From assembly GCA_000310025.1 (NCBI GenBank), contig FN649733.1:1091903-1155902 (forward strand): a DNA stretch of 64,000 bases, given 5' to 3'. Of the stretch, positions 3,857 to 36,404 are shown piece after piece; the first letter of the stretch is position 1, and the number at the start of each line of letters is the position of its first letter. Source of the DNA: Ectocarpus siliculosus. Its lineage: Eukaryota > Sar > Phaeophyceae > Ectocarpales > Ectocarpaceae. A model generated the notes under the pieces. The model was not told the origin of the DNA. It saw only the letters and a list, made by a program, of their open reading frames with translations, and did no database searches. The position numbers were made by a program, and so were the translations under genes.

Positions 3857-4128
3857 TTGGTTTGTTCTACAACGTCGTTGCCAAGCGACGAAAACCCAAT
3901 CCCGATGGCAAACACCGAGGGGGGGGCTTGTTTTACAACGTCGTTGCCAAGCGACGAAAACCCAATCCCGATGGCAAACACCGAGGGGGGGGCTTGTTTT
4001 ACAACGTCGTTGCCAAGCGACGAAAACACAACCCCGATGGCAAACACCGAGGGGGGGCTTGTTTTACAACGTCGTTGCCAAGCGACGAAAACCCAACCCC
4101 GATGGCAAACACCGGGGGGGGCGGGGGG
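3857..4128 (-). repeat. Four tandem ~63-bp monomers of the poly(C) retroposon family
   Basis: Four copies of a roughly 63-66 bp unit follow one another, each separated by a run of G. The unit carries a hairpin core (CGTCG and CGACG around TTGCCAAG) and ends with GATGGCAAACACC plus Gs. The same unit occurs 1-3 times at the 5' end of the longer elements elsewhere in the window. Here the monomers stand alone, without the body or 3' end. In the retroposon orientation this copy is on the minus strand. Confidence 0.85.
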
Positions 4129-18351: not shown

Positions 18352-21300
18352 TCAAGCCTCCTTCAGCTTGCCGTCTCGCTTGTGGTCGGCCAACACCGAC
18401 TCCCCCACGAAGAAGAAAAACAGGGCGCTGATCGCGTAGAAGGCCGCCACGGTGTAGAGGAGGACGTCCTGCAGCTCGAAGCCCCCCTGTTGGATCAAGT
18501 ACCCCATCAGCGGAGGCGCCAGCGTTCCGAACGCCGACAGTGTGCTGTTGTAAGGGGTTTCGAGGTGCGAACGCGGTAAGGGGTAGCGGGTGGGGGTCAG
18601 CGAGCGGCACGCCTTTTGCGAGGATATAAGAGACAATCAATGGAGAAGAGAGGGGGGCTTCGTATCCCTATCTCTAACCCTGCCCCTAGCCCCCAACCCC
18701 ACACCCCATGCCCCATCTACTAAAATCAAGCTTAAATTCCTTGCAAAGGCTACCGCAGCGAGCAGGCCGGGCAGGCGGTCAACTTGGGAGGGTGGAAACA
18801 CCCGGACAAGAGAAGCCGTTGAAGGACAGCAACGTGCTAGGACGCGAACAGGTGCTAGCTGCTTCATTTGGAAGTGTCCCGTTTGTGCTAATCGGCACAA
18901 CGTTTTCCGGACGGCTCCTGCTGGACACAAGATCACGTTTAACCCGGAATGCCTCGCAGCAGTATTTTACACCAGTTCGAGATTTACTCGAACGACCCAG
19001 ATACGTTCTATCGCAAACATAGTAGTTTCGATCACATTTCGTCACGCCAGTCGATCTTCGCGCGTGCACCGGAGAAGGAAGGAGGGCAGTCACCTGAAAA
19101 CCCCTTGGCCAACACCTCGCACGTTGGGCGGAAGGCCTTCCTGCAGTATCGTAACCGTGCCACCGAACCAACATTCCGCCGCGATGTACTCGGCCAGCAG
19201 GAAGGCCAGCGAAACGTAGAAGTTGGTCCCGGTGACGACCCCGATCCAGCACGGAATGGCGAGGATACACCCTGCCATAGGCACCCATGCACGCACCCGC
19301 GGGTCCTTTCGGACGGGAGAGAGGCGTGCAGTCGGGAGTTGACAGAATGGGTTAGGGGAGAAACGGGGTTCCGGCAACAACGATACGCTACTACCTTCGC
19401 TATTTTCTTATAGGGAGGGGGGGGGAGGGGGGGGGGGGGGGCTGGAATGGCAGGGGCCTTCGGGGCCCGGCCCGGGGGGGACCCTCCCAACACCTATGCT
19501 TTATGGGATCTTNNNNNNNNNNNNNNNNNNNNNNNNNNNNNNNNNNNNNNNNNNNNNNNNNNNNNNNNNNNNNNNNNNNNNNNNNNNNNNNNNNNNNNNN
19601 NNNNNNNNNNNNGGGGGGGGGGGGGGGGGGGGGGGGGGGCTGGAGTGGCAGGTGCCTTCGGGGCCCGGCCCGGTGGTGACCATCGCAGCACCTATGCTTG
19701 ATGTGATCATGTCACCGGAAGCTCTAGCAACTCAAGAAACGGAATCCACACTATTAATAGGACAAGTGTCGGCGGGTGAAATGCTTGTTGCGTACTAATA
19801 TGGTGCTCATCTTTGCTATCAGGAGCGTAAGAACATCCAACATATCATGTTCTGAACTACTGCGCCTGGATCGGGGCAGCAGTCGAAAAAAAAAGCCTCC
19901 CAGAAACGACTCGAACCTGCCGCCCATCGCAGCAAACGCCAAAAGCGTACGGCAAGTCGACGAAAAAACACGGTCAGCACGCATCGCTGATTGAAACCGA
20001 GAATCACGACAGACTTCTCAAGATTAACCGGGCTGAGAACCCACCTCGACAGAGTACTTATCCGAAATGACGCCCCCTAGGAACGACGAGAGGAGGCCCC
20101 CGCCCGCCACGACGAACGCGTTGAGGACGGCGTACTCCGAAGAGTTGGACGGGAAACGCCCTCGGAAGAAGGGGGCACACCACACCCCGATGCCGAAGCC
20201 AGCGCAGAACCGGAAGGCCGTTGCCAGGAACACCTGAGGAGGATGGGCATATGCGGGGGAGTCGGGGTTGTCATCGCTTTATTGGATAAAGGCGTAACCA
20301 TTAGACTAATACTCAATCCGTACCCTTTAGACACTTAAGACTACTCAGGAAGCTTAGTGAGTAGTCGATGGCCACCCTTTATCTTCAAAAAAAGTGCGCC
20401 GATTTCGTTCACCGCGGCATACGGCTGAAACCGCCTGCACGCGCCAATTAGAGCAGGTGATACCTTCTCCGCAACAAAATACTCCGCGGACAGCGCGTGG
20501 AAAGGTTTACGCCAGCAGCAAAACAGCTACGTCGTCTCGGTACGAGAGCGGCCAGCGCGCAAAAAATACCGCTGATGTTGTTGGTCCAACACCTTGCATA
20601 CACAGCAGCCGGAACAGCTCCAACAAAAACCGCAAAAAGAGACCGACGGAGACGGGTGTCGGATGCGATCAGCGTGTACGACGCGCTTACGCACCAGCCT
20701 GACCGTGTTGGACTTGAAAACGATACCCAGGGCCTCCTGAAACGATTCCCTCTCTTCCGACTCCTCTCCCGCACCGCCGCCACCCTTGTCGCCGCTCTTA
20801 GCGGCGGTGTTGTCCCCCGCGCCGGCGCCGGGTTCACCGGCAGTGGGGAACTCCCTCGTCGGCTCCTGGATGAGGAGGGCCGACAGGACAGCGACGGCCA
20901 CGCCTACGGCCGCCACCACGAGGTGGCTGTCGCGCCACCCGATCGCGCCTTGTCGCGTATATTTCGCAAGTGCGGGCGCAGGGTGTGTGTGTGTGTGTGT
21001 GTACTCATAGTCGTGCATGCCGTAGTCGTTTGACCATTGACCCTTTCCATCCCTACAAAGCCGGGACGGAGCACGCCGGGTTCTCACCGGACCAGGCTCT
21101 CACATGACCAAGCGCGAAGCGCCGTGAGGTATTTGGCGAGTCGCATGAAGGGTGAGCTGCATCCTGCTAAGGGTGTTCGGCATCTTGTGCTTACTTCCTT
21201 GCGTACGGATGACAGCTACGTATGACTTAATTTATTTTCTGGTGCTTTAACTTCCAGAGACAGTTGTAAGCACTGTGTAACTGCCTCGAGGATGTTTGAC

Positions 21301-24300
21301 CAATTTAACACAACGTGGTGCGATCATCCCCCTTGAGCGGAGTGAGGGTTCTCGACCCCGCACAACATGATCTACTCGACCACCATTATGGTTACCGCCA
21401 AAAAAAAACACCGAGGTAAAAAAAAAAAACGGTAACCTGGTTACGAGTTCACGAAGTGAATTGGCTTGTTTTACAACGTCGTTGCCAAGCGACGAAAACC
21501 CAACCCCGATGGCAAACACCGGGGGGCGGGGGGGGAGGGGGTGCACTCATAGTCGTGCATGCCGTAGTCGTTTGACCATTGACCTCGCATCCCTACAAAG
21601 CCGGGACGGAGCACGCCGGGTTCTCACCGGACCAGGCTCTCACATGACCAAGCGCGAAGCGCCGTGAGGTATTTGGCGAGTCGCATGAAGGGTGAGCTGC
21701 ATCCTGCTAAGGGTGTTCGGCATCTTGTGCTTACTTCCTTGCGTACGGATGACAGCTACGTATGACTTAATTTATTTTCTGGTGCTTTCACTTCCAGAGA
21801 CAGTTGTAAGCACTGTGTAACTGCCTCGAGGGTGCTTGACCATTTTAACACAACGTGGTGCGATCATCCCCCGTTGCGCGGAGTGAGGGTCCTCCACCCC
21901 GCACAACATGATCTACTCGACCACCATTATGGTTACCGCCAAAAAAAAAAAAACGAGGTAAAAAAAAAAAAAAACGGTAACCTGGTTGCCGAGTTCACGA
22001 AGTGAATTGGCTTGTTTTACAACGTCGTTGCCAAGCGACGAAAACCCAATCCCGATGGCAAACACCGAGCGGGGGGCTCGTTTTACAACGTCGTTGCCAA
22101 GCGACGAAAACCCAACCCCGATGGTAAACACCGGGGGGGGCGGCTTGTTTTACAACGTCGTTGCCAAGCGACGAAAACCCAAACCCCGATGGCAAACAAG
22201 GCTGAGGGGGAGGGGGGGGGGGGGATTATATCACCGATCACCGTTCACGTTTCACGTCCATGACTAGATGATACTTTGGATGAAGTGCCTCTTCCTACTT
22301 GTACTTTATTCAGGCTAGCTTGTGGCCACGGAAATTTACTTCTTTTCCTTGAAGAGTAGAGTAGAAGAGACATTGGATACAGGTCGAACAGTGCTTAATG
22401 TGCAGACAACGACAACAACATGGCAGGAAAGCGCGGGACTACTTAGTGTCCAATGCTGGTTGTGGAGTGGGTACTAAATCGGTCAAGGGATGGGCTACTT
22501 TCGACGAAGAAGGCGTGAGTTTCATCGTGAAAATCCATGGACGGCGGCTAGTGAACCGGATCAAACGCCGCCAGTACGAAAAGGGTACTGGGGACCCAGA
22601 CTGAATATACCGACCGACTCGCCGTGGACTTACCGTTGAGCAGCAAAGACAAGCTCGCCAACGCTCCCCCCAAGTACACCCCGGACGAGTAGATGGAGTT
22701 CGCTGTCCCTCGAACCGACGCCGGGAACAGATCGCTGATCATCGTGTAGGCCGCCGGAGTCTTGATTAGCACGATTTTTTTGGCGATTGTGAAGGGAGGA
22801 GGACCAACGCACAAGAGGTGTGAGGGAAAGGCGATCCCAAGGAGGGAGCAAGCAGCTGCTGTGGCACGCAGCAATCTGATTGGTCAAAGAGGACTTCGGT
22901 AGAAAAGAAATGCACCCGCCGACCGACAATCCTTCGGATGACGAGTGATGTTTCTTCCAAGGCCAGTTGGGAGGAAAAGCTTTCGGACACGGATGATGTC
23001 GTCGGCGGGGTTTTGATTGGGCGACCGCGGTCGGTCGTCATGTGGAGGCTTTTGGGTGGAATTCTTTCACACAAAGATTTCTGTTCTGTGGTGGGTCAAC
23101 TACAAATGGGACAGCTGGTCGAAAAACACCCAGTGGCGAGCAGTAATTTTCTGGTTGGCTGATAAACAAACAATGGATTCGGGAGAGGGCGGAGTGATTG
23201 GTGTTTTACCTGGAAATAAAATAAAAAAAATGAAGAAATAATGTTATTAGGCAGACAGATTCCAATATCAGGAACAATTAAAGACGAAGCGTCATGCAGT
23301 TTTCTTACTGGCCGAAACAAAACGTCACGCATTCCCGAATTTCGTACGGCGAATCTCTATCTCTGTGTTTAGTCCGCGAGTAGCGTCACACACGCATAAA
23401 TAACACCCGCTCACCTTAGCGTGGGTGAGTATGTGATCTGAAATTTGAGGGGCTCACGCGTGGGTGGGTAGAGCGCGGTAGACCCCGGGGGGATTCTAAT
23501 ATCGTTCCCGCACTAATGGTCAGATATAGCTCACTTTTCAACGGCGGGGCAGAGAGATTTCTGTCTATTCTGAGCCTAAAACTTTTGTGGGTGGTTGATC
23601 GGGTGGTTGATCGATGAACCAGGTGTCTTCGGAAAAGTGACATAAAATTGCCGCTTCTTGGGTGCATGTGTGAAGTGAGTAGCGGACAAACGGAAAATAT
23701 TCATAATCCTATCCCGGACATGCACGACGTTTTTCATTCGACCAGTAAGAAAAGTACGTGACACAATTCCGAAAAGGTTGCCGTTCATATCGAACACGTT
23801 CGTGCTTCGGCAGAGGTAGATGGCACACACGCAGCAGCAGCGGTGACGCACGAGACGAGCAAACGAGTGTATGCAGATGTGACGGTCGAACGTACCGGCC
23901 GAGCACCAAGGTTTCCGCAAGGAGTCGAACGCGCAACACAATGGAATACAAAAAATTACTACCAACCATCACTTCGGGCCGGGAGACAACAAATAATGCG
24001 GTTGCACAAAAACGCGGACGATAAACGTTGGTGCCCGCCCGAGCACACTTCAAAAGAGCGCATACCGCATGCACCAAGATTGTTCGACAATACCCGCGAA
24101 TAGCAGATACTCCCCACGAAATCGCACGCAAAAAGCGTCCAACCACCAGTGGTCTTTTCATTTGCAATGCGAGAATGCGGGCACGAAGCGGGCCTAAGAG
24201 CTCACCGTGAACCGACCCCAAAATGTGTCCAACCAACAGGTTCACACGCGAGTTGTTCCGCGGACACGGAAGCATGCCTAAGAGCTCACCGTGAACGCCT

Positions 24301-26931: not shown

Positions 26932-29900
26932 ATGATGACAGAAAGGATCTCCCCGCCTGCTACATCCAAACTTTTCATCAACAATCAGTGGCACGACGCG
27001 GGGTGAGTGGCGTATGGATGCTGTATAAGCAGTCGTGTCCAGGAGTGGTGCTTTCTTTCGCTGGCGTCGTTGCCGTTTTCTCCAGTCGTCGCGGGCCTCA
27101 GTTGTGGCGCATTTCTCCTTGCGCAAATCATGCTTGTCCCTTGCCCCCCCCCCATGACATGCCCCCACTAACATGGTAGCTGAGCGATCTGTTCGTGGTC
27201 CCGTGCCCGAACAACTGAATACAGCGGGGTGCACCCCGTAGTCACTTCAATTACAATATAGGTATTGGGTAGAGAGTCCCATGCCGCTACTCTTTCCTGA
27301 TGGCTGTTCGGCACGAAGCATGCGTTGATTTCAAACGGGGGTGCTATAAGCGTGCGTGTTCTTTTCGTACCCCCGGTATATATAATAAAGTGGAGTCGTC
27401 CGACACCGCGAAGTCTCGTCTAGTGCGTTCAATGCAACCAAAACCCAATGCCCCTTATCGTCCTATGCATATGTAGCGTGATTCCTGCCTGGATGTGCAA
27501 CACGACAAATGAACTCTCGATCGCCACAACGCACCAAGTACGAGGAGCTATGATGCGACTGTAAGGTACCACAGTGAACGAGGTACCCTGCTCCCATCCA
27601 CAGCATGTACATGGGGCCAGGCTCCGCTTCTAGACCCGCAAGTTACTGCAGTACTCCATGTAAAGATAGTGTTCGACCAAATGCCAAGCGTTTAACGCGA
27701 AGGCGAAGAATTATTTGACGTGTACCTATCGCGAAGTAGCGTGAGAAGTGAGCACATCTTGCGGAAGACAGACTGCTGTGCCACAACGCATTTCTTCGGG
27801 TCTGCAGAACGTAGCAGACGCGAAAAGCGAGGAATCGTAAACAAGTGCGCGTGTTGTGTGCGTCCTCGGGCCGGGCCTTAAACCGGATTTGCACACCCAG
27901 ACTTTGCACCCCAGACGAGGCTAGTCTGGAAAGTTCCACGTAACTCTTGGTGTATGTTTTTTCATTTGTGAACGGAACGATAGTCAGCGATTCCATCATA
28001 GAGTTGAGCTTGCTGGAGGTTCAGCTGGCAAAATACCGATGATCCGATCGGATGTATCCAAATCTGGGATGATTTGTGAAACCACGGATCGGACTGGATG
28101 GAACATGTTGGAGTTTTGCAACAGCACGAGACCACGACCTCTCTCCGCGACCCCGAAACCTCGCGAGCCGTCGAGGTCGGTTCTTGAATGTATGCCTCCC
28201 GCTGCAGCCCCGGCTCCTTCCTCGAATCTGCCGCAGCCAGTGCCCAACTGATCGGTGGTGTTTATGGCCTCTGCGGCCCCCATACAAGCGCTTCCCCATA
28301 CTGCGCGTCCGGGGTGCCATGGGCGCCCCGCCGGCGCTCGATCTCGCGAGTGTCTTCTTCGCGTCTGGCAAGTGCTGCAAGGAGCTTCCGCGGCTCGAGC
28401 TCTCCCGGTTGGTTGGCCACGAAGGGCTAGCCCTCGCAGTGGTGCGGATTCTTGGCCCGTGGTTTCGGCGGCTTCCGAGCACAACGCGCATGCCCCCCAC
28501 CGTTGCGGGTACGTACGTCTCGGGCAATCCGGGAGGTGGAGGCCACGCAACTCTTTGGTGCTGCACATCTTTGACCTTGGACTGTTTCCGCAACATGCTA
28601 CCCAAATCGAAGCCCCGTGGAGGAGAACAGAAGTCGAAGGTCAAGGATGTGCGGCACCGAGAGCTGCGTGGCCCCGGAAAGCGCGAGACGTACCCGCAAC
28701 GGTGGGGGGTACACGCGTTGTGCCCGGAGACCGCCACAACCTCGGGCCAAGAACCCGCACCACGGCGAGGGCACACCCTTCCTGACCAACCAACCGGAAA
28801 AGCTCGAGCGGCGGAAGCTCCTTGCAGCGTCGGGGGTATGACTTTCTGTTTTCCTTTTGGGATCGTAGGTCCTCCTCCCCCCCGAGTCTGGGCATTCGGT
28901 GGATTCAGTTTGGTTAAAAAGAAAGTTCGGGCATCCAAGAAGTGTAATCGGATCCGGATTGCACGGAGCTTTGCGCCTTCCGTGCAGCCTCGGAGAACAT
29001 GACTGAAAAAGGGTCAACCCGTTCTAGATGGCTCTGAGAGGGGATGCATTGACCGGATAACGGATGGCCGCCAGGAAATAATCCGCGCATGGCCTCCCCC
29101 ACCCCTTGCACCTACCAAGCGCAATCTTTTATCCCCCCCCCCCCCCCTCGGTGTTTGCCATCGGGGTTGGGTTTTCGTCGCTTGGCAACGACGTTGTAAA
29201 ACAAGCCGCCCCCCCCGGTGTTTGCCATCGGGGTTTGGGTTTTCGTCGCTTGGCAACGACGTTGTAAAACAAGCCCCCCACTCGGTGTTTGCCATCGGGA
29301 TTGGGTTTTCGTCGCTTGGCAACGACGTTGTAAAACAAGCCAATTCACTTCGTGAACTCGACAACCAGGTTACCGTTTTTTTTTTTTTACCTCGGGTTTT
29401 TTTTTGGCGGTAACCATAATGGTGGTCGAGTAGATCATGTTGTGCGGGGTCGAGAACCCTCACTCCGCGCAACGGGGGATGATCGCACCACGTTGTGTTA
29501 AAATGGTCAAGCTTCCTCGAGGCAGTTACACAGTGCTTACAACTGTCTCTGGAAGTGAAAGCACCAGAAAATAAATTAAGTCATACGTAGCTGTCATCCG
29601 TACGCAAGGAAGTAAGCACAAGATGCCGAACACCCTTAGCAGGATGCAGCTCACCCTTCATGCGACTCGCCAAATACCTCACGGCGCTTCGCGCTTGGTG
29701 ATGTGAGAGCCTGGTCCGGTGAGAACCCGGCGTGCTCCGTCCCGGCTTTGTAGGGATGCGAGGTCAATGGTCAAACGACTACGGCATGCACGACTATGAG
29801 TACCCCCCCCCCCCCCCCCCTCGCGGAATGTCCGTGGTACGAAGAGGAAAGGGAAGTGTACATAACTGAGCTGGGAAAAATACAAGGGACGTATAGGGAT

Positions 29901-32900
29901 GTTTGAGGCATGGAATAGAGAGGAGAGGATGGTAGCTGAACTGGGGAGTAGGAAGTGGTTTGAAAAGGCGGGAAGGGATATCGTTAGGATAGACAGACTA
30001 GGGAAGACATTTTTTAGCACCTTTGGCAAAGTAGGAAAGAACGATTGGCCATCGGTGATCGGTCCTGTGGGAACAATGCTCCGTCCTCTCGAGGACGCGT
30101 GGTCAATGGTCTAACCGCTAAGGCATGCAAAACATAAGAGTACGCCCCCCCCGCCCTCGTCATTCGTCCTTCACACTCTCAGTAGCGCTCATCGGCGTAC
30201 CGTAGGCGACATCACATGACGTAAGATATCACACCCCCTGGACTGATTTTCAGAGGAGAGTGGCGGTGCCGAAAATGGCGTTAGGCGTTGGAACCTTGTC
30301 GTCGAGAGGTTTCCGAAACCGTATCGTTCGATCTATTCTTCCTCTTCGTCGTGGAGTAGTCGAGCTTTCAAAAATCGGTCCAGGGGGTGTGATATCTTAC
30401 GTCGCCTACGGTCTTACCGGTCCGTGAAAGAGTCCATGAAACACGACGCGTAGTACTCGCTCCCGTCCCGAGAAACTCAGCCCTTCTCCGAACCCGCTTT
30501 TTAACCGGTTTGTGGAGTTTCACGCGAACGGCTACTCCGATTTGCTCATCGCAATGTTGTGACTGCGACGGTTTTTCCCGTGATCGTTTACCTGCTGGTA
30601 TAGCCCAAGAAAGAAGGCACGTCACAGGCTTCACCAACTCGTTTGCCACCTCTTTTCTCCTCGTGAGATAAACCCCCATAGCCCACGCTCTTTTGTGCGG
30701 CGCCCATCTACCACCCTAAACGTATGGTGCTGAACACGTGGCACTATGTGGTGGACGGAGCAGCTCCACTTGTCGAGAAAAAAAATCCCCCAAAAGAAAT
30801 GGTCCCCACCGGCTTTCTCAAAAACTTACACCCCATCGTTTTCGATGCCGCTGTTGTTGACGCTTGCAGAGGCGGGGCGACGTTCGAGAGCCTTAACCCA
30901 GCGACGGAGGAATTGATCTGCTCCTGCGCCAACGCGCAGGCGGAGGACGTGGACAAGGCCGTTGCCGCCGCTCGCGCATGGTGCGGAAAGAAGTCAGTTG
31001 TCCGGTCATGTGCATGGTGATACAGGAGTAGGGTTTGGCCATCATACGGTAGGGTCCGAAGGCGCAACCAGCTGCCGGCACACTTGTAACAGGCAGCCCC
31101 ACATGCGTTTCACCGGAAAGAGATGTTTCCTGGTTATCCTTGACCCCCCCCCCTTTCGCACGCGCTATCTATCTATCTCTCGTTTGTCGTTTTCACCTGT
31201 AACTTGTTGATGCATCCAAGTTTCGAAGGTCCCAACTGGGGGTTTAAGAGCACCGGGGCACAGCGGGCCGCCTGCCTGCGGGCCATGGGCAAAGCCATCG
31301 AGGACGACAAAGATGTCAGTAAAACGTTAAAAACAACACGTGTTGTAGCCCACGTGACCACAGAACCATACCACAATGGTATCCTTGAGAACTGTGGCGC
31401 GGTGGGGCAGCTGTTGGTAAAGATGAACCATATCAAGGCGGCGTCCTGCAGTAGGGCCGTGCCAGTTGCACGTCGGTAGGGAGTTCGGCATGAAGATCTC
31501 GAGGACGAACATGGTGGTGTGGCTGGCGACATCGATTGAGGTACTCAATAAGGGCGTTGCGCTGTCGAAAAAAACACAACATAGACAACTGAAATGCTTG
31601 ATCCCACTGGAAACACAGGCATTCGCCCGGCTCGAGTCGGAGGACTGCGGCAAGCCCATCAAGGAGTCTGTCGACGACATGGATCAAGCTGTAGAGGCCT
31701 TGAGGTGCGGTGCGTGGGCCCTGCCGACCGGTCTTGCGTGGTGGTGCAACACATGGTAAAACAGCAGTGTGTGCATACAACTCGAAAGCCGTGTAGGGTC
31801 ATGAGGTGAAGAAAGCACGATGCCGCCCGTTCGCCCCTCCTTGGCCAGCCTCTGAACCAGGCATCCTTGTTCCACGGATAGCGCGGGCGTGAAAGGAAAG
31901 TGGAAGCGATGCTCGCGTCTCGAGAGGAACGCTCCACGAACGAGAAACTTTGACGAGGGGGGACAAGAAATGATTGAGCCGCTCCTCCGCCGCCGCCTTC
32001 GCGGAATCTTCCCCCGATTGCTCCAGGTTTTACGCAGACTTGGCGGAAAATCTCGGCGCGGAGGAACCGGAGGAGATCGCGGTACCGGACGACAGCTTCA
32101 GGACGCGGGTGGTGCGCGAGCCGATCGGGGTGATCGGGGCTATTACCCCGTGGAATTACCCGCTGCTCATGGCGGTGCAGAAGGTGGCGCCCGCTCTCGC
32201 CGCCGGCTGCACCGTCGTCCTGTAAGTCTCAGCAGACAGCGGGCCGTTTGTTGCGAACGCCAGCCGCCTCTCGACCGTGTTGTATTTGGGGTGCTATCGG
32301 TGACACGGCTGCTGCTTCTGCTGTTGGTGGCAGTTGTCTGGTATGGGGTTGGAGGGTGCCACTCATCCTGTCTAAACATGTCTTGTCGGCCGGTTTAATC
32401 AACACGCTACTTGTAGATATTCTTCATGGCTGATTTTTCGGTTGTCGGTGACGCCGCCGGATTCACATCGACGAGGCAGAGGATAAAACACTCCCAACAA
32501 ACTCCAGCGTGGCTATGAATCTTGTCGGCCGATTTAATCGATATGCTGGGATATTCTTCGTCTCTGATTGTTCGTGGTCGGTGACGCCACCGGATTCCCA
32601 TCGACGAGCGAGCCAGAGAATAGAACACTCGCGATAATACCAACACGGCTTTCAATCCGCACACACACACAACCCTCCCCTCCCCTCCTTCCCCTCCAAA
32701 ACCCGCTGCACGTACGGCTATTCACCGTAGGAAACCCTCCGAGCTTGCCCCGCTTACGTGCGCCCGGATGGCCACTCTCGCGGAGGCGGCGGGGCTGCCG
32801 GCCGGCGCCTTGAACGTGCTCACGGGGGAAGGGTCTCCCGCGGGAGCATCGCTGTCGGCCCACCGCGGAGTGGACAAGGTGTCCTTCACGGGGTCAGTGC

Positions 32901-35900
32901 CGACGGGCCAGGTAACGTACTGCTGCTGCTGCTGTTGTTGTTGTTGTTGTCGTTGTATGTTGTTTTGGGAATGCTAGCATTTAGGGGTTGTTCTTCTTCT
33001 TGCCGTTTCGTTTTGCTTTTTGGGATGCTAGAATTGAGGGGTGACGATGACTGTAACCGCCATGGAGGCATGTGTGCCGAGTACATGGAGAGTTAGTATG
33101 GTGTTTCATGTAGATGGTGTTGCAGCAGCACCTTCGGGTTTCGTAGGACACCACACTTCCAGGACTAACCACCGATACCCTTGATGCACTCGCTTGCCGT
33201 CGATGACCATCCCGTCAGAAAGTAATGGCTGCCGCGGCGGGAGGTCCGGCGGGCGTCCATCTGGAGCTGGGGGGCAAGGGCGCCATGATTGTGTTCGATG
33301 ACATCGAAGACATCGACGCAACCGTGGACTGGTGGGTGTGACTGCGCTTGCGAAGTATCCCTTGCGTACCCACGCACCGCATCGGTACGTCAATCTGAAC
33401 CCCGGGCCATGTCTTGTTCTCTGATTTGTTGCAGAGGCTCGAGTGGTCTCCATCTCCGTGTGTTGAACTCCGTCCAATCGAACTTCATTCGAAACGACAG
33501 TAACTCAAAACATCGTCAACACAAGAACTCGAACGCCGTCTGGTCAGAGGCAAGAAACTGGAGGCAATTTTTTTCAAGAGTGTCCTGCTCCCATTACCCG
33601 TTTCTCGTATGTAGCAACAATTACCCCCGTTGTCGGGGCCGTATTTTTTTCCGTCCCCCCTCACCCTCTGTCGCTACACACCGAGCAGGATCTGCATGGG
33701 AATTTTCTTCAACTCCGGCCAGGTCTGCAGGTAAGGAACGATATGTCCCCGCTACACCCGCGATTAGCCTTGGCGAGGATATTTTAGCTTGGTTTTGATA
33801 TTTTTGAGGTTGGTTTCAGTAGGGGTTACGGGTTGGGGTTGGGGTTGGGGGTTAGGGTCAGGGATAGAGATACGAAACCCCCCACTCTATTTCATTAATG
33901 AGTACTAAAACTCCTGGCGAAGGCGACCCTCGCTCACTCTATGTGGGCACACACGAAATACATGCCGGTCACACGGTGTGGTTGTTGCATGTTGCCGTAC
34001 GCTAGGTTCTGCCAGGGGGCACAGAAGCGCTGGTTTTTGGCAACAATGATTGAATCGTACAGTGGAAAAGACTCTGTCGTCGGGCGAAGAGACGTGTCTT
34101 GAAAACGTAGGCACCGGAAAAGCGCTCAAGAGGATAACGCGACACAAATCACGCCGGTCGTGTCGACACTGGTGCCGTCCTCTTCTCTTGAGCGCCACGT
34201 CGCACCTCATACGGAAGAGGAACATCTACACACCCGACTCCCGCTCGCGAGTGTCGCAAGCTAACGTGGCGTGAGACCACGTGTCCTTGCTGATTTAAGA
34301 AGAGGATGTAAGAAGAGAAGAGACGGCAAGCTGGGGGCTTACATTTGAGGGGTACCAAGGCCGCTGGGTTATACCAGTGGTAGATGACAAGAGGACGAGA
34401 GAAAGAAGGAGCGACATTTGTCACACACACACACTGCTGCAGGTGCGGGTCGCGTCTGCCCCCCTCCCCGACCCCATAATTTCTATAACCGCCGTCGTTA
34501 CTTCCTACGACGCTGTGCGCGCCTCATGAGCCACCCAGCGCCACGTCGCGCCTGCTGCTGCACAGCAAGATTCACGACAAGGTAGTGGCCAAGATTCTGG
34601 AGCGTGCGGCGAGCGTCACGGTCGGAGGTCCCCTGCGTGCTGACGACAAGGGGGCGGAGGGGGCTTGCATGGGGCCGCTGGTCAGCGGTCCCCAGAGGGA
34701 CAAGGTTCTGGGGTTCATATCTAGGGTGAGGGGGGGGGAGGGGGAGTGAGTGTGGTACGCAGGAGGGATATGGAGATAGGTGGACGGAGGGAGAAGAAGA
34801 GCGTCTATCACCAGTCAGAGGATCGCGGTGAAGGGTAGAGAGGGTGGGTAGAGAGAGAGCGAGAGAGAGACAGAGACAGAGACAGACAGACAGACAGACA
34901 GACAGATGAGACGATAGTCACTGCTGTGGCACCTCGCTCTCTTTTCGGTCCTCGGCGACGAAAGGCGATGCAGGCGCAAAGAGGGCGACACGATACATTG
35001 CTTCTTGCTCTGCTCCTATCGCCAAGTACTTAGCAGAGACTGGCAACATTATAGTGCGAAAACAACAACAATATCAACAACAATAGCAACAACAACAACA
35101 ACAACAACAACAATGTTAATGTTTGACCACAGGCTGTGGACGCCGGGGCCAAGGTTCTCTGCGGGGGGGGTCCCCCCCCCGACGCCGACGCCGCCTCCAC
35201 CGATCGAAAGCCGGGAAAGGGCTACTACGTGTCCCCTACCGTGTTGACGGGCGTGAAGGAGACGGACGAGGCTTGGACCGCGGAGATCTTCGGGCCGGTG
35301 CTTTGCGTCCGGCAGTTCGAGGAGGAGGACGAGGCGTTGGCGGCAGCAAACAATTCGGAGTTCGGCCTTGCTGCCTCGGTTATGAGCGCCGACAAGGACA
35401 GGTGGAGAGACTATTTTTTGTTCGAGGACATTGATTGCTGGGGAGTTCTTGATCGTTGATCGTGCAGTATGACGCCCTACGGTAGTGGAGGTACTGTAGA
35501 AGTAGCTGGGCAGGAGCAGCAAGAACAGAACAAAGAGGTCGTCCTCGTAGTACTTGAGAGAATTCGGGGAGGGGGGCATAACCGTCCGTGTAGAAGTCGG
35601 CCTATTACGGTCTACCTCTTGTGGTGAGGTCTGGGCGCCGACAACGGGCATTGTGTGAAACGATCCACTCATCATGATGGTGTGGGTCATGTTGCGTGGC
35701 CGAAACGAACGAGTCTATCTTGTTAGACCCCAACCCCGCCCTTGCACCATCAAGAGACTACGCCACGCACGACTCTTGAGTACCCCTTCTGGCGAACGTT
35801 TGGTTAAATGGGATGTCCAATCAACCCATGGCATATCTGGTTTGACACAGCAAACGCAAGGATGATGAGCTGCTTCTGGTTCACCCTTGTGAAACGTACT

Positions 35901-35992
35901 AGCCTGTGCCGGCGAAAACCCGGCGTATCGCTTCGTCCCGGCATTGTGGGGATGCGAGGTCAACGGTCTAACGACTACGGCATGCGTACACG

Positions 35993-36025
<33 letters not shown>

Positions 36026-36125
36026 NNNNNNNNNNNNNNNNNNNNNNNNNNNNNNNNNNNNNNNNNNNNNNNNNNNNNNNNNNNNNNNNNNNNNNNNNNN
36101 NNNNNNNNNNNNNNNNNNNNNNNNN

Positions 36126-36158
<33 letters not shown>

Positions 36159-36404
36159 ACCACCGATCGTCTTGTTCGCACCGTGCTCGAAATGCTAAGG
36201 TGCGAGCGCGTGGCCCGTGCGCTCCGAGTCGGAATCGTGTGGCAGAACTGCTCCCAGCCCGCCTTCATCCAGGCCCCGTGGGGCGGCTACAAGAAGAGCG
36301 GCTTCGGCAGGGAGCTGGGACGGTGGGGCCTCGAGGCCTTCCTGGGCGTGAAGCAGATCACCTCTTGCGCAGGGAGCTTCAGCTACGAGTGGTACGGGAA
36401 GTAA
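26932..36404 (+). CDS. Betaine/aminoaldehyde-type aldehyde dehydrogenase, 11 exons
   Basis: Exons: 26932-27002, 30870-30992, 31221-31314, 31619-31704, 32027-32221, 32731-32911, 33219-33331, 33689-33730, 34539-34725, 35133-35401, 36200-36404; phases close, giving 521 residues. The enzyme oxidises aldehydes to acids with NAD(P)+. Landmarks in order: [29 protein letters not shown] with the oxyanion-hole Asn; KPSELAPLT and FTGSVPTGQ of the Rossmann fold; LELGGK with the general-base Glu; [15 protein letters not shown] with the catalytic Cys; [34 protein letters not shown] resembles ALDH9/ALDH10 betaine or aminoaldehyde dehydrogenases; the substrate is inferred. There is no C-terminal peroxisomal SKL (it ends YEWYGK). 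Start chosen at the ATG beside LFINN; an upstream in-frame ATG at 26656 exists. Intron 1 (3.9 kb) holds a palindrome, a retroposon, a LINE remnant and a small inverted-repeat element. Confidence 0.92.
28373..28828. repeat. Large imperfect palindrome (fold-back element) in intron 1 of the aldehyde dehydrogenase
   Basis: A left arm of about 205-230 bp from 28373 (TGCTGCAAGGAGCTTCCG) is matched in inverted form by the right arm ending at 28828 (CGGAAGCTCCTTGCAGC), with roughly 80% identity and a short centre near 28590-28620. Open frames on both strands across it resemble each other because of this symmetry. It could be a fold-back transposon or a diverged inverted duplication; no terminal target duplication was found. 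Confidence 0.8.
29134..29820 (+). repeat. Poly(C)-tailed SINE-like element, three monomers
   Basis: Three monomers (29148-29340), the standard body and a tail of about 18 C at 29803-29820. Its C tail is immediately followed by the LINE remnant. It lies in intron 1 of the aldehyde dehydrogenase, in the same orientation as the gene. Confidence 0.88.
29820..30157 (+). mobile_element. 5'-truncated LINE-like remnant with poly(C) tail
   Basis: The plus strand encodes [19 protein letters not shown] and, after one frame slip near 29876-29881, a frame through [17 protein letters not shown] to a stop near 30114. ECPxYEEER is typical of the segment following reverse transcriptase in many non-LTR elements (…ECPRYEEER…). 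The 3' part (30076-30157) carries TCTCGAGGACGCGTGGTC, GGCATGCAAAACAT and then CCCCCCC. That 3' end is shared with the truncated copy at 16493 and, more distantly, with the SINE-like elements. The LINE assignment rests on a short motif. Confidence 0.55.
30197..30413. mobile_element. Small inverted-repeat (MITE-like) element in the aldehyde dehydrogenase intron
   Basis: Ends are inverted copies of about 40-50 bp: ACCGTAGGCGAC followed by GTAAGATATCACACCCCCTG and ending near GATTTT on the left (30197-30251), and the complement on the right (30371-30413). The left arm has a short extra insert (ATCACATGAC). The interior of about 120 bp has no coding potential. No clear target-site duplication was found. 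Confidence 0.65.
32381..32655. repeat. ~137-bp tandem duplication in intron 5 of the aldehyde dehydrogenase
   Basis: Units near 32381-32519 and 32520-32655 both begin CTTGTCGGCC and share GATATTCTTC, GTCGGTGACGCC and ATCGACGAG blocks. They differ at many sites, so the duplication is not recent. Confidence 0.7.
35885..36125 (+). repeat. Diverged poly(C)-tailed retroposon 3' end and adjoining assembly gap
   Basis: 35885-36000 matches the SINE-like 3' end (AACCCGGCGT, GGGATGCGAGGTCAACGG, CTACGGCATGC) with clear divergence. A C run follows and then 100 N at 36026-36125, with further Cs on the right. The gap is evidently a homopolymer sequencing failure inside intron 10 of the aldehyde dehydrogenase. 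A further degenerate 3' end may lie at 35728-35786. Confidence 0.7.

Follow-up and report, generated by a model that had tools for sequence, protein, structure and literature searches.

At positions 29133–30159 of a 64,000-nucleotide stretch of the Ectocarpus siliculosus genome (contig FN649733.1, positions 1091903–1155902; hereafter the window), an element resembling a short interspersed element (SINE) is followed directly by a truncated piece of a long interspersed element (LINE), and each is followed by a run of C. The locus raises the question of what these runs represent: tails contributed by the elements, as proposed in the original prediction made from the letters of this stretch, or the genomic sites into which the elements inserted. 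Analysis of copies in the window and across the 189-Mb assembly of the species, from which all genome-wide counts were obtained, indicates that the C run is both target and tail. A scan of this assembly for EsV-1-7 (PF19114) gave 150 scored matches among 880 candidates, compared to none in 14 control genomes, which marks it as that of a brown alga. In a simple model, which we consider likely, the LINE and the SINE-like element would both use target-primed reverse transcription to enter C tracts of the genome, with a nicked G run priming on C-tailed RNA. The locus comprises the following features.

29133–29147, + strand: run of 15 C at the 5′ edge of the SINE copy, read directly; it may be the target tract, the first C run belonging to the element, or both
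29140–29341, + strand: three 66-bp SINE-like monomers, each with a C-rich start (Tandem Repeats Finder); the monomer also occurs elsewhere in the window
29342–29803, + strand: SINE-like body of about 460 bp, ending TATGAGTAC, with T13 at 29376–29388 and T9 at 29397–29405
29713–29803, + strand: 3′ end of the SINE, homologous to that of the LINE (pairwise alignment)
29803–29820, + strand: run of 18 C, the SINE tail, in which the LINE piece is apparently inserted; the first C is shared with GAGTAC
29821–30143, + strand: 323-bp LINE piece, 5′-truncated, the end of an endonuclease–reverse transcriptase frame, ending CATAAGAGTAC
30061–30143, + strand: 3′ end of the LINE, homologous to that of the SINE (pairwise alignment)
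30144–30159, + strand: G and eight C (LINE tail; C at 30145–30152), then GCCCTCG with the candidate duplication CCCTCG

The LINE piece abuts the end of the SINE's C run, which suggests that it was probably inserted into the SINE tail. Its TAA stop codon, at 30135–30137, lies in the frame that other copies use. The candidate duplication CCCTCG received a score of 3.0, which is weak taken alone.

A near-exact empty site was recovered with the joined flanks of the SINE copy L008. The unoccupied locus, L071, reads ACCA-CCCCC-GGCAGT-TTGAC and matches the whole 118-base query at 99%. In the occupied L008, CCCCCGGCAGT flanks the SINE at either end. The SINE tail comprises 18 C, compared to 5 C in the empty L071, which indicates that the C runs serve simultaneously as target and tail. 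Another locus, L006, apparently represents the occupied L008 site in a diverged copy. With the joined flanks of a second SINE copy, L019, 40 of the 42 listed places cross the junction without an insert; of five places that were fetched, three read GCGCACCCC and two (L075 and L076) have an altered tract. Tail and target lengths were compared in 22 copies read by hand, picked by eye for a readable duplication (L002 was left out as ambiguous). The tail exceeds the target in length in 15 copies, equals it in 3, and falls short of it in 4, with a median target of 8 C and a median tail of 10.5 C. The original prediction had opposed C runs that are target sites to C runs that are tails. The target is indeed a C run, but the excess of C in those 15 tails and at the occupied L008 site argues against the target standing in place of a tail.

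The SINE body occurs at 42 or more places in the genome with 95–100% identity (best 42 scored, from 2426 first-look candidates), and the LINE piece at 41 or more scored places, 40 of them at 95–100% identity and one at 77% (2380 first-look candidates); both counts are lower bounds, based on scoring of the best candidates. The loci that were read are the best-scoring 30 SINE and 30 LINE copies of these 42 and 41, a non-random sample. Among the 30 LINE loci fetched, 22 show truncation at many points within the fetched stretch, 2 reach gaps (L041 and L055), and 6 extend beyond it. The 22 truncated loci, together with L067, L068, and L070, provided 25 truncated 5′ junctions for comparison with their surroundings. 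A run of at least five C was found at 20 of these (in the 25 nt upstream or the first 12 nt), compared to 22 of 556 equal intervals in the same flanks at least 100 nt further out, and runs of A, G, and T were found at 1, 2, and 1 of the same junctions, respectively. A 26th junction, L032/L065, was added by eye and has no C run of five or more. In a separate count of 22 of the LINE junctions, a C run was present at 17, compared to 879 of 18159 intervals over the whole 64-kb window.

The 5′ and 3′ flanks of the copies also match in pairs, sharing strings that start in the C tract. In a position-restricted test of 51 loci (22 LINE and 29 SINE), the summed score was 218.5, compared to a maximum of 192 in 20,000 permutations. 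L014 was excluded owing to runs of N, BLAST had over-run the junctions at L047, L052, L057, and L059, which were therefore moved manually, and the pairing script missed duplications visible by eye at L036 and L048. Clear duplications are seen at L016, L040, L033 (CCGTGAAGTTA), and L008 (CCCCCGGCAGT). The two elements use the same target motif: SINE L019 and LINE L048 (read by eye) occupy the same CCCC, each in its own copy of one repeat.

The relatedness of the two 3′ ends, claimed in the original prediction for the SINE and the LINE remnant, is borne out by the sequences at the locus. Over about 90 nt, the two ends align locally with a score of 52, a value that was never above 26 when the LINE piece was shuffled 500 times, and the LINE piece is followed by G and eight C. 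Genome-wide, exact matches number 1673 for the 21-nt SINE end and 318 for the 22-nt LINE end, with no occurrence of the reversed-pattern control for either. Any base followed by at least five C comes directly after 1390 of the SINE ends (83%) and 253 of the LINE ends (80%), leaving 17% and 20%, respectively, that lack this pattern. The common forms are GAGTACA(C)n for the SINE and GAGTACG(C)n for the LINE. Chance as the source of the shared ends and tails is rejected by the shuffles, the reversed-pattern controls, and these counts. That all SINE-like elements end in a C run, as was originally stated, holds for most copies only: eight of the nine matches to the shared motif in the window lead into C-rich tracts, but one (minus strand, motif at 21042) leads into (AC)n, and the 17% without the C pattern depart from the rule genome-wide. 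The SINE copy at 21001–21462 on the minus strand has a tail of (AC)n rather than C, and its tandem neighbor at 21545–22008 has the usual C-rich tail. No clear shared hairpin was seen in minimum-energy folds of the SINE and LINE 3′ ends. Two related 3′ ends of other elements lie at 35700–36160 of the window (at 35777, TGAGTACCCC; and a motif at 35958); the latter runs into a long C run, then an assembly gap, then another C run.

LINE copies with this 3′ end contain coding sequence for a predicted endonuclease and a reverse transcriptase and end in C; the reverse transcriptase and the C end were points of a check proposed with the original prediction. Copy L060 contains an uninterrupted frame of 372 amino acids with a reverse transcriptase match (PF00078, 2.6e-28), and the best match of the LINE reverse transcriptase in the PDB is the LINE-1 ORF2p (1.7e-13). 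Adjoining pieces of one LINE copy match APE-type endonucleases (PF14529, 9.4e-5; PF03372, 1e-4), both under the curated cut-off. The longest copy read (L066 and L038) is about 4.05 kb in length; its first 0.7 kb or so was assigned by coding similarity only. Judged by these predicted domains, and by variable 5′ truncation with target-site duplications in the copies as a group, the element is an APE-type non-long terminal repeat (non-LTR) retrotransposon. The endonuclease–reverse transcriptase frame stops at a TAA seven bases ahead of the C run, so that the 3′ end in common with the SINE is, in the LINE, mostly protein-coding.

Taken together, the common 3′ end and the common C-tract target support one machinery for both elements. 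The original proposal that the same reverse transcriptase mobilizes both is favored to this extent; that a single enzyme serves both is what we infer. In the proposed mechanism, the endonuclease would nick the G-run strand of a C/G tract, and the freed 3′ G run would pair with the C tail of a LINE or SINE RNA and prime first-strand synthesis, with the LINE enzyme presumably acting in trans on the SINE. The run would be lengthened by RNA-borne C or by slippage, and a cut of the second strand a few bases on would yield a duplication consisting of the C tract and 0 to about 11 nt, often with a 5′-truncated copy. Because every insertion leaves a new C tract, tails would in turn become targets, and nested and tandem clusters would arise. 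Such arrangements are found: a LINE lies in a SINE tail at L031 (the locus of this window) and L058 and in the C run of a monomer at L052 and L057, and a SINE lies directly behind a LINE tail at L009, L035, and L039.

The SINE-like body has six further copies in the window by BLAST (three consecutive copies at about 6.3–8.0 kb, an adjacent pair on the minus strand at 22.0–21.0 kb, and one on the minus strand at 60.0–59.5 kb), and the LINE piece occurs there once. An array of about four 66-bp monomers at 3862–4121 on the minus strand is joined to sequence other than the SINE body, indicating that the monomers exist in more than one context. Within the body, a motif resembling the generally known A-box consensus is located at 29423, downstream of the T runs, with no TTTT after it; no B box was found in the SINE by a strict pattern, and Rfam and tRNA searches with the SINE head returned no match. 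Two pairs of inverted repeats adjoin the elements at the locus, possibly representing other repeats: 28374–28514 with 28688–28828 (141 nt, 87%) and 30218–30250 with 30371–30403 (33 nt, 97%). Sequence similar to the second pair flanks the SINE at L016.

Two alternative accounts would assign the C runs to only one of the two roles. If they were target sites only, the RNA would have no C tail and a duplicated C tract would mimic one. Duplications that start in C tracts, some with interruptions copied exactly (for example at L034 and L027), are as this account would predict, as are the seven hand-read copies with a tail equal to or shorter than the target, whose tails could be wholly target-derived. 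The 15 copies with longer tails are at odds with it, and its strict form is rejected by the comparison of 5 C in the empty site with 18 C in the occupied one; slippage of the primer could still generate the excess without an RNA-borne tail. We regard an origin from the target alone as unlikely. Far less probable, in our judgment, is the converse, that insertion is random and the 5′ C runs derive from the element's own 5′ end, from tailing of complementary DNA (cDNA), or from template jumping. Full SINE copies do have C runs of their own between the 66-bp monomers, and on the 5′ side of the SINE at L017 the target sequence is repeated, as expected of template jumping: following the duplication and ahead of the SINE, about 22 nt of target and a C run occur again, which would fit a jump of the reverse transcriptase onto the target at a C run. 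The LINE copies, however, are truncated at many different internal points and still have C runs upstream, the flanks match pairwise, and empty sites already contain a C tract. Tailing of the cDNA is rejected because C added to the first strand would appear as G on the sense strand, and G runs at the LINE junctions are at background. Several observations nevertheless weigh against the model of a C run that is target and tail. In addition to the seven short or equal tails, six of the 26 LINE junctions lack a C run of at least five, although one of the six (L051) resembles an internal deletion rather than a 5′ end; taken one by one, only 11 of the 51 loci score above the 95th percentile of the mispaired control; the loci read were best-scoring copies rather than random draws; the endonuclease matches score below the Pfam curated cut-offs; and the frames are interrupted in all six of the longest LINE copies read.

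A further alternative concerns only the head of the short element and is compatible with insertion at C tracts as target and tail. The element may be a non-autonomous derivative that uses the LINE 3′ end with a head from elsewhere and another promoter, rather than a classical polymerase III SINE, a proposal for and against which we would give even odds. T runs usually stop polymerase III, and the body contains both T13 and T9. The repeated 5′ monomers, their junction with different sequence at 3862–4121, and the lack of an Rfam or tRNA match to the head point in the same direction, whereas the position of the A-box-like motif, beyond the T runs and with no later TTTT, would be compatible with a polymerase III promoter. 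For RTEX-N1_Ec32, very probably the same element, Dinatale et al. (PMC12477816) report that the origin of the 5′ region could not be determined.

RTEX-N1_Ec32 also shows that the LINE/SINE partnership is already published for Ectocarpus. As described by Dinatale et al. (2025, PMC12477816), it is a non-autonomous element of Ectocarpus sp. 7 with a length of about 600 bp and more than 6000 copies, whose 3′ end is conserved with the autonomous RTEX-1_Ec32 and RTEX-2_Ec32; whether it is a SINE is left open there. Both cases involve a brown alga and a very abundant non-autonomous element sharing its 3′ end with autonomous LINEs, and the pair described here is very probably RTEX-N1_Ec32 with RTEX-1/2_Ec32, likened by description rather than by sequence. 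The assignment to RTE-X rests on the same resemblance. The earlier impression that no poly(C)-tailed pair had been described in this group is accordingly outdated for the partnership, but apparently not for the C tail: in the main text of PMC12477816 neither a C tail nor a C-tract target was found, the whole word "poly" and "homopolymer" being absent and "tail" being confined to "tail-to-tail." Searches of the wider literature returned no poly(C) tails, but as they could not match the bracketed "poly(C)," this negative carries next to no weight.

The tails and targets of LINEs are usually treated in terms of poly(A). Human LINE-1 nicks at a T run and has a poly(A) tail, such that the tail is complementary to the nicked run and the duplication begins in the run. 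The elements described here would work in an analogous manner, with a tail complementary to the presumed nicked run and a duplication starting in it, but with C/G in place of A/T and a stringent common 3′ end of about 90 nt in place of the tail alone. If correct, such a C/G family would set the principle of complementarity between tail and nicked run apart from the nucleotide involved, provide an endonuclease/reverse transcriptase pair for testing, and give the published Ectocarpus pair a mechanism open to experiment; it would also help account for the long C runs and clustered repeats in the Ectocarpus genome.

In borrowing a LINE 3′ end, and in its terminal repeats and slippage, the SINE-like element resembles the stringent SINE/LINE pairs, such as those of eel (PMC3747384). 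The tails named in the passages concerned are poly(A), which is also treated in that work, poly(T), (ATT)n, (CTTT)n, (TTG)n, (TTGATG)n, and repeats of TAA and TGTAA; a C tail is not among them. LINEs that choose simple repeats are known from the microsatellite-targeting non-LTR elements (Togen at (TG)n, HERO, and the Tx1 and R1 clades; PMC4640811). Here, in contrast, the target is a short C homopolymer, with four to five C being enough at two sites, and the passages concerned name early-branching, Tx1, and R1 groups, rather than RTE-X, as making up most target-specific families. We lean slightly toward viewing the system as a G/C mirror image of LINE-1, in which the endonuclease would prefer the G-run strand of short C/G tracts and the reverse transcriptase would start on C-tailed RNA. 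Both elements and the tails they leave would thereby form a self-seeding network of C-tract targets, specific for homopolymeric C and outside the lineages named as target-specific in those passages of PMC4640811.

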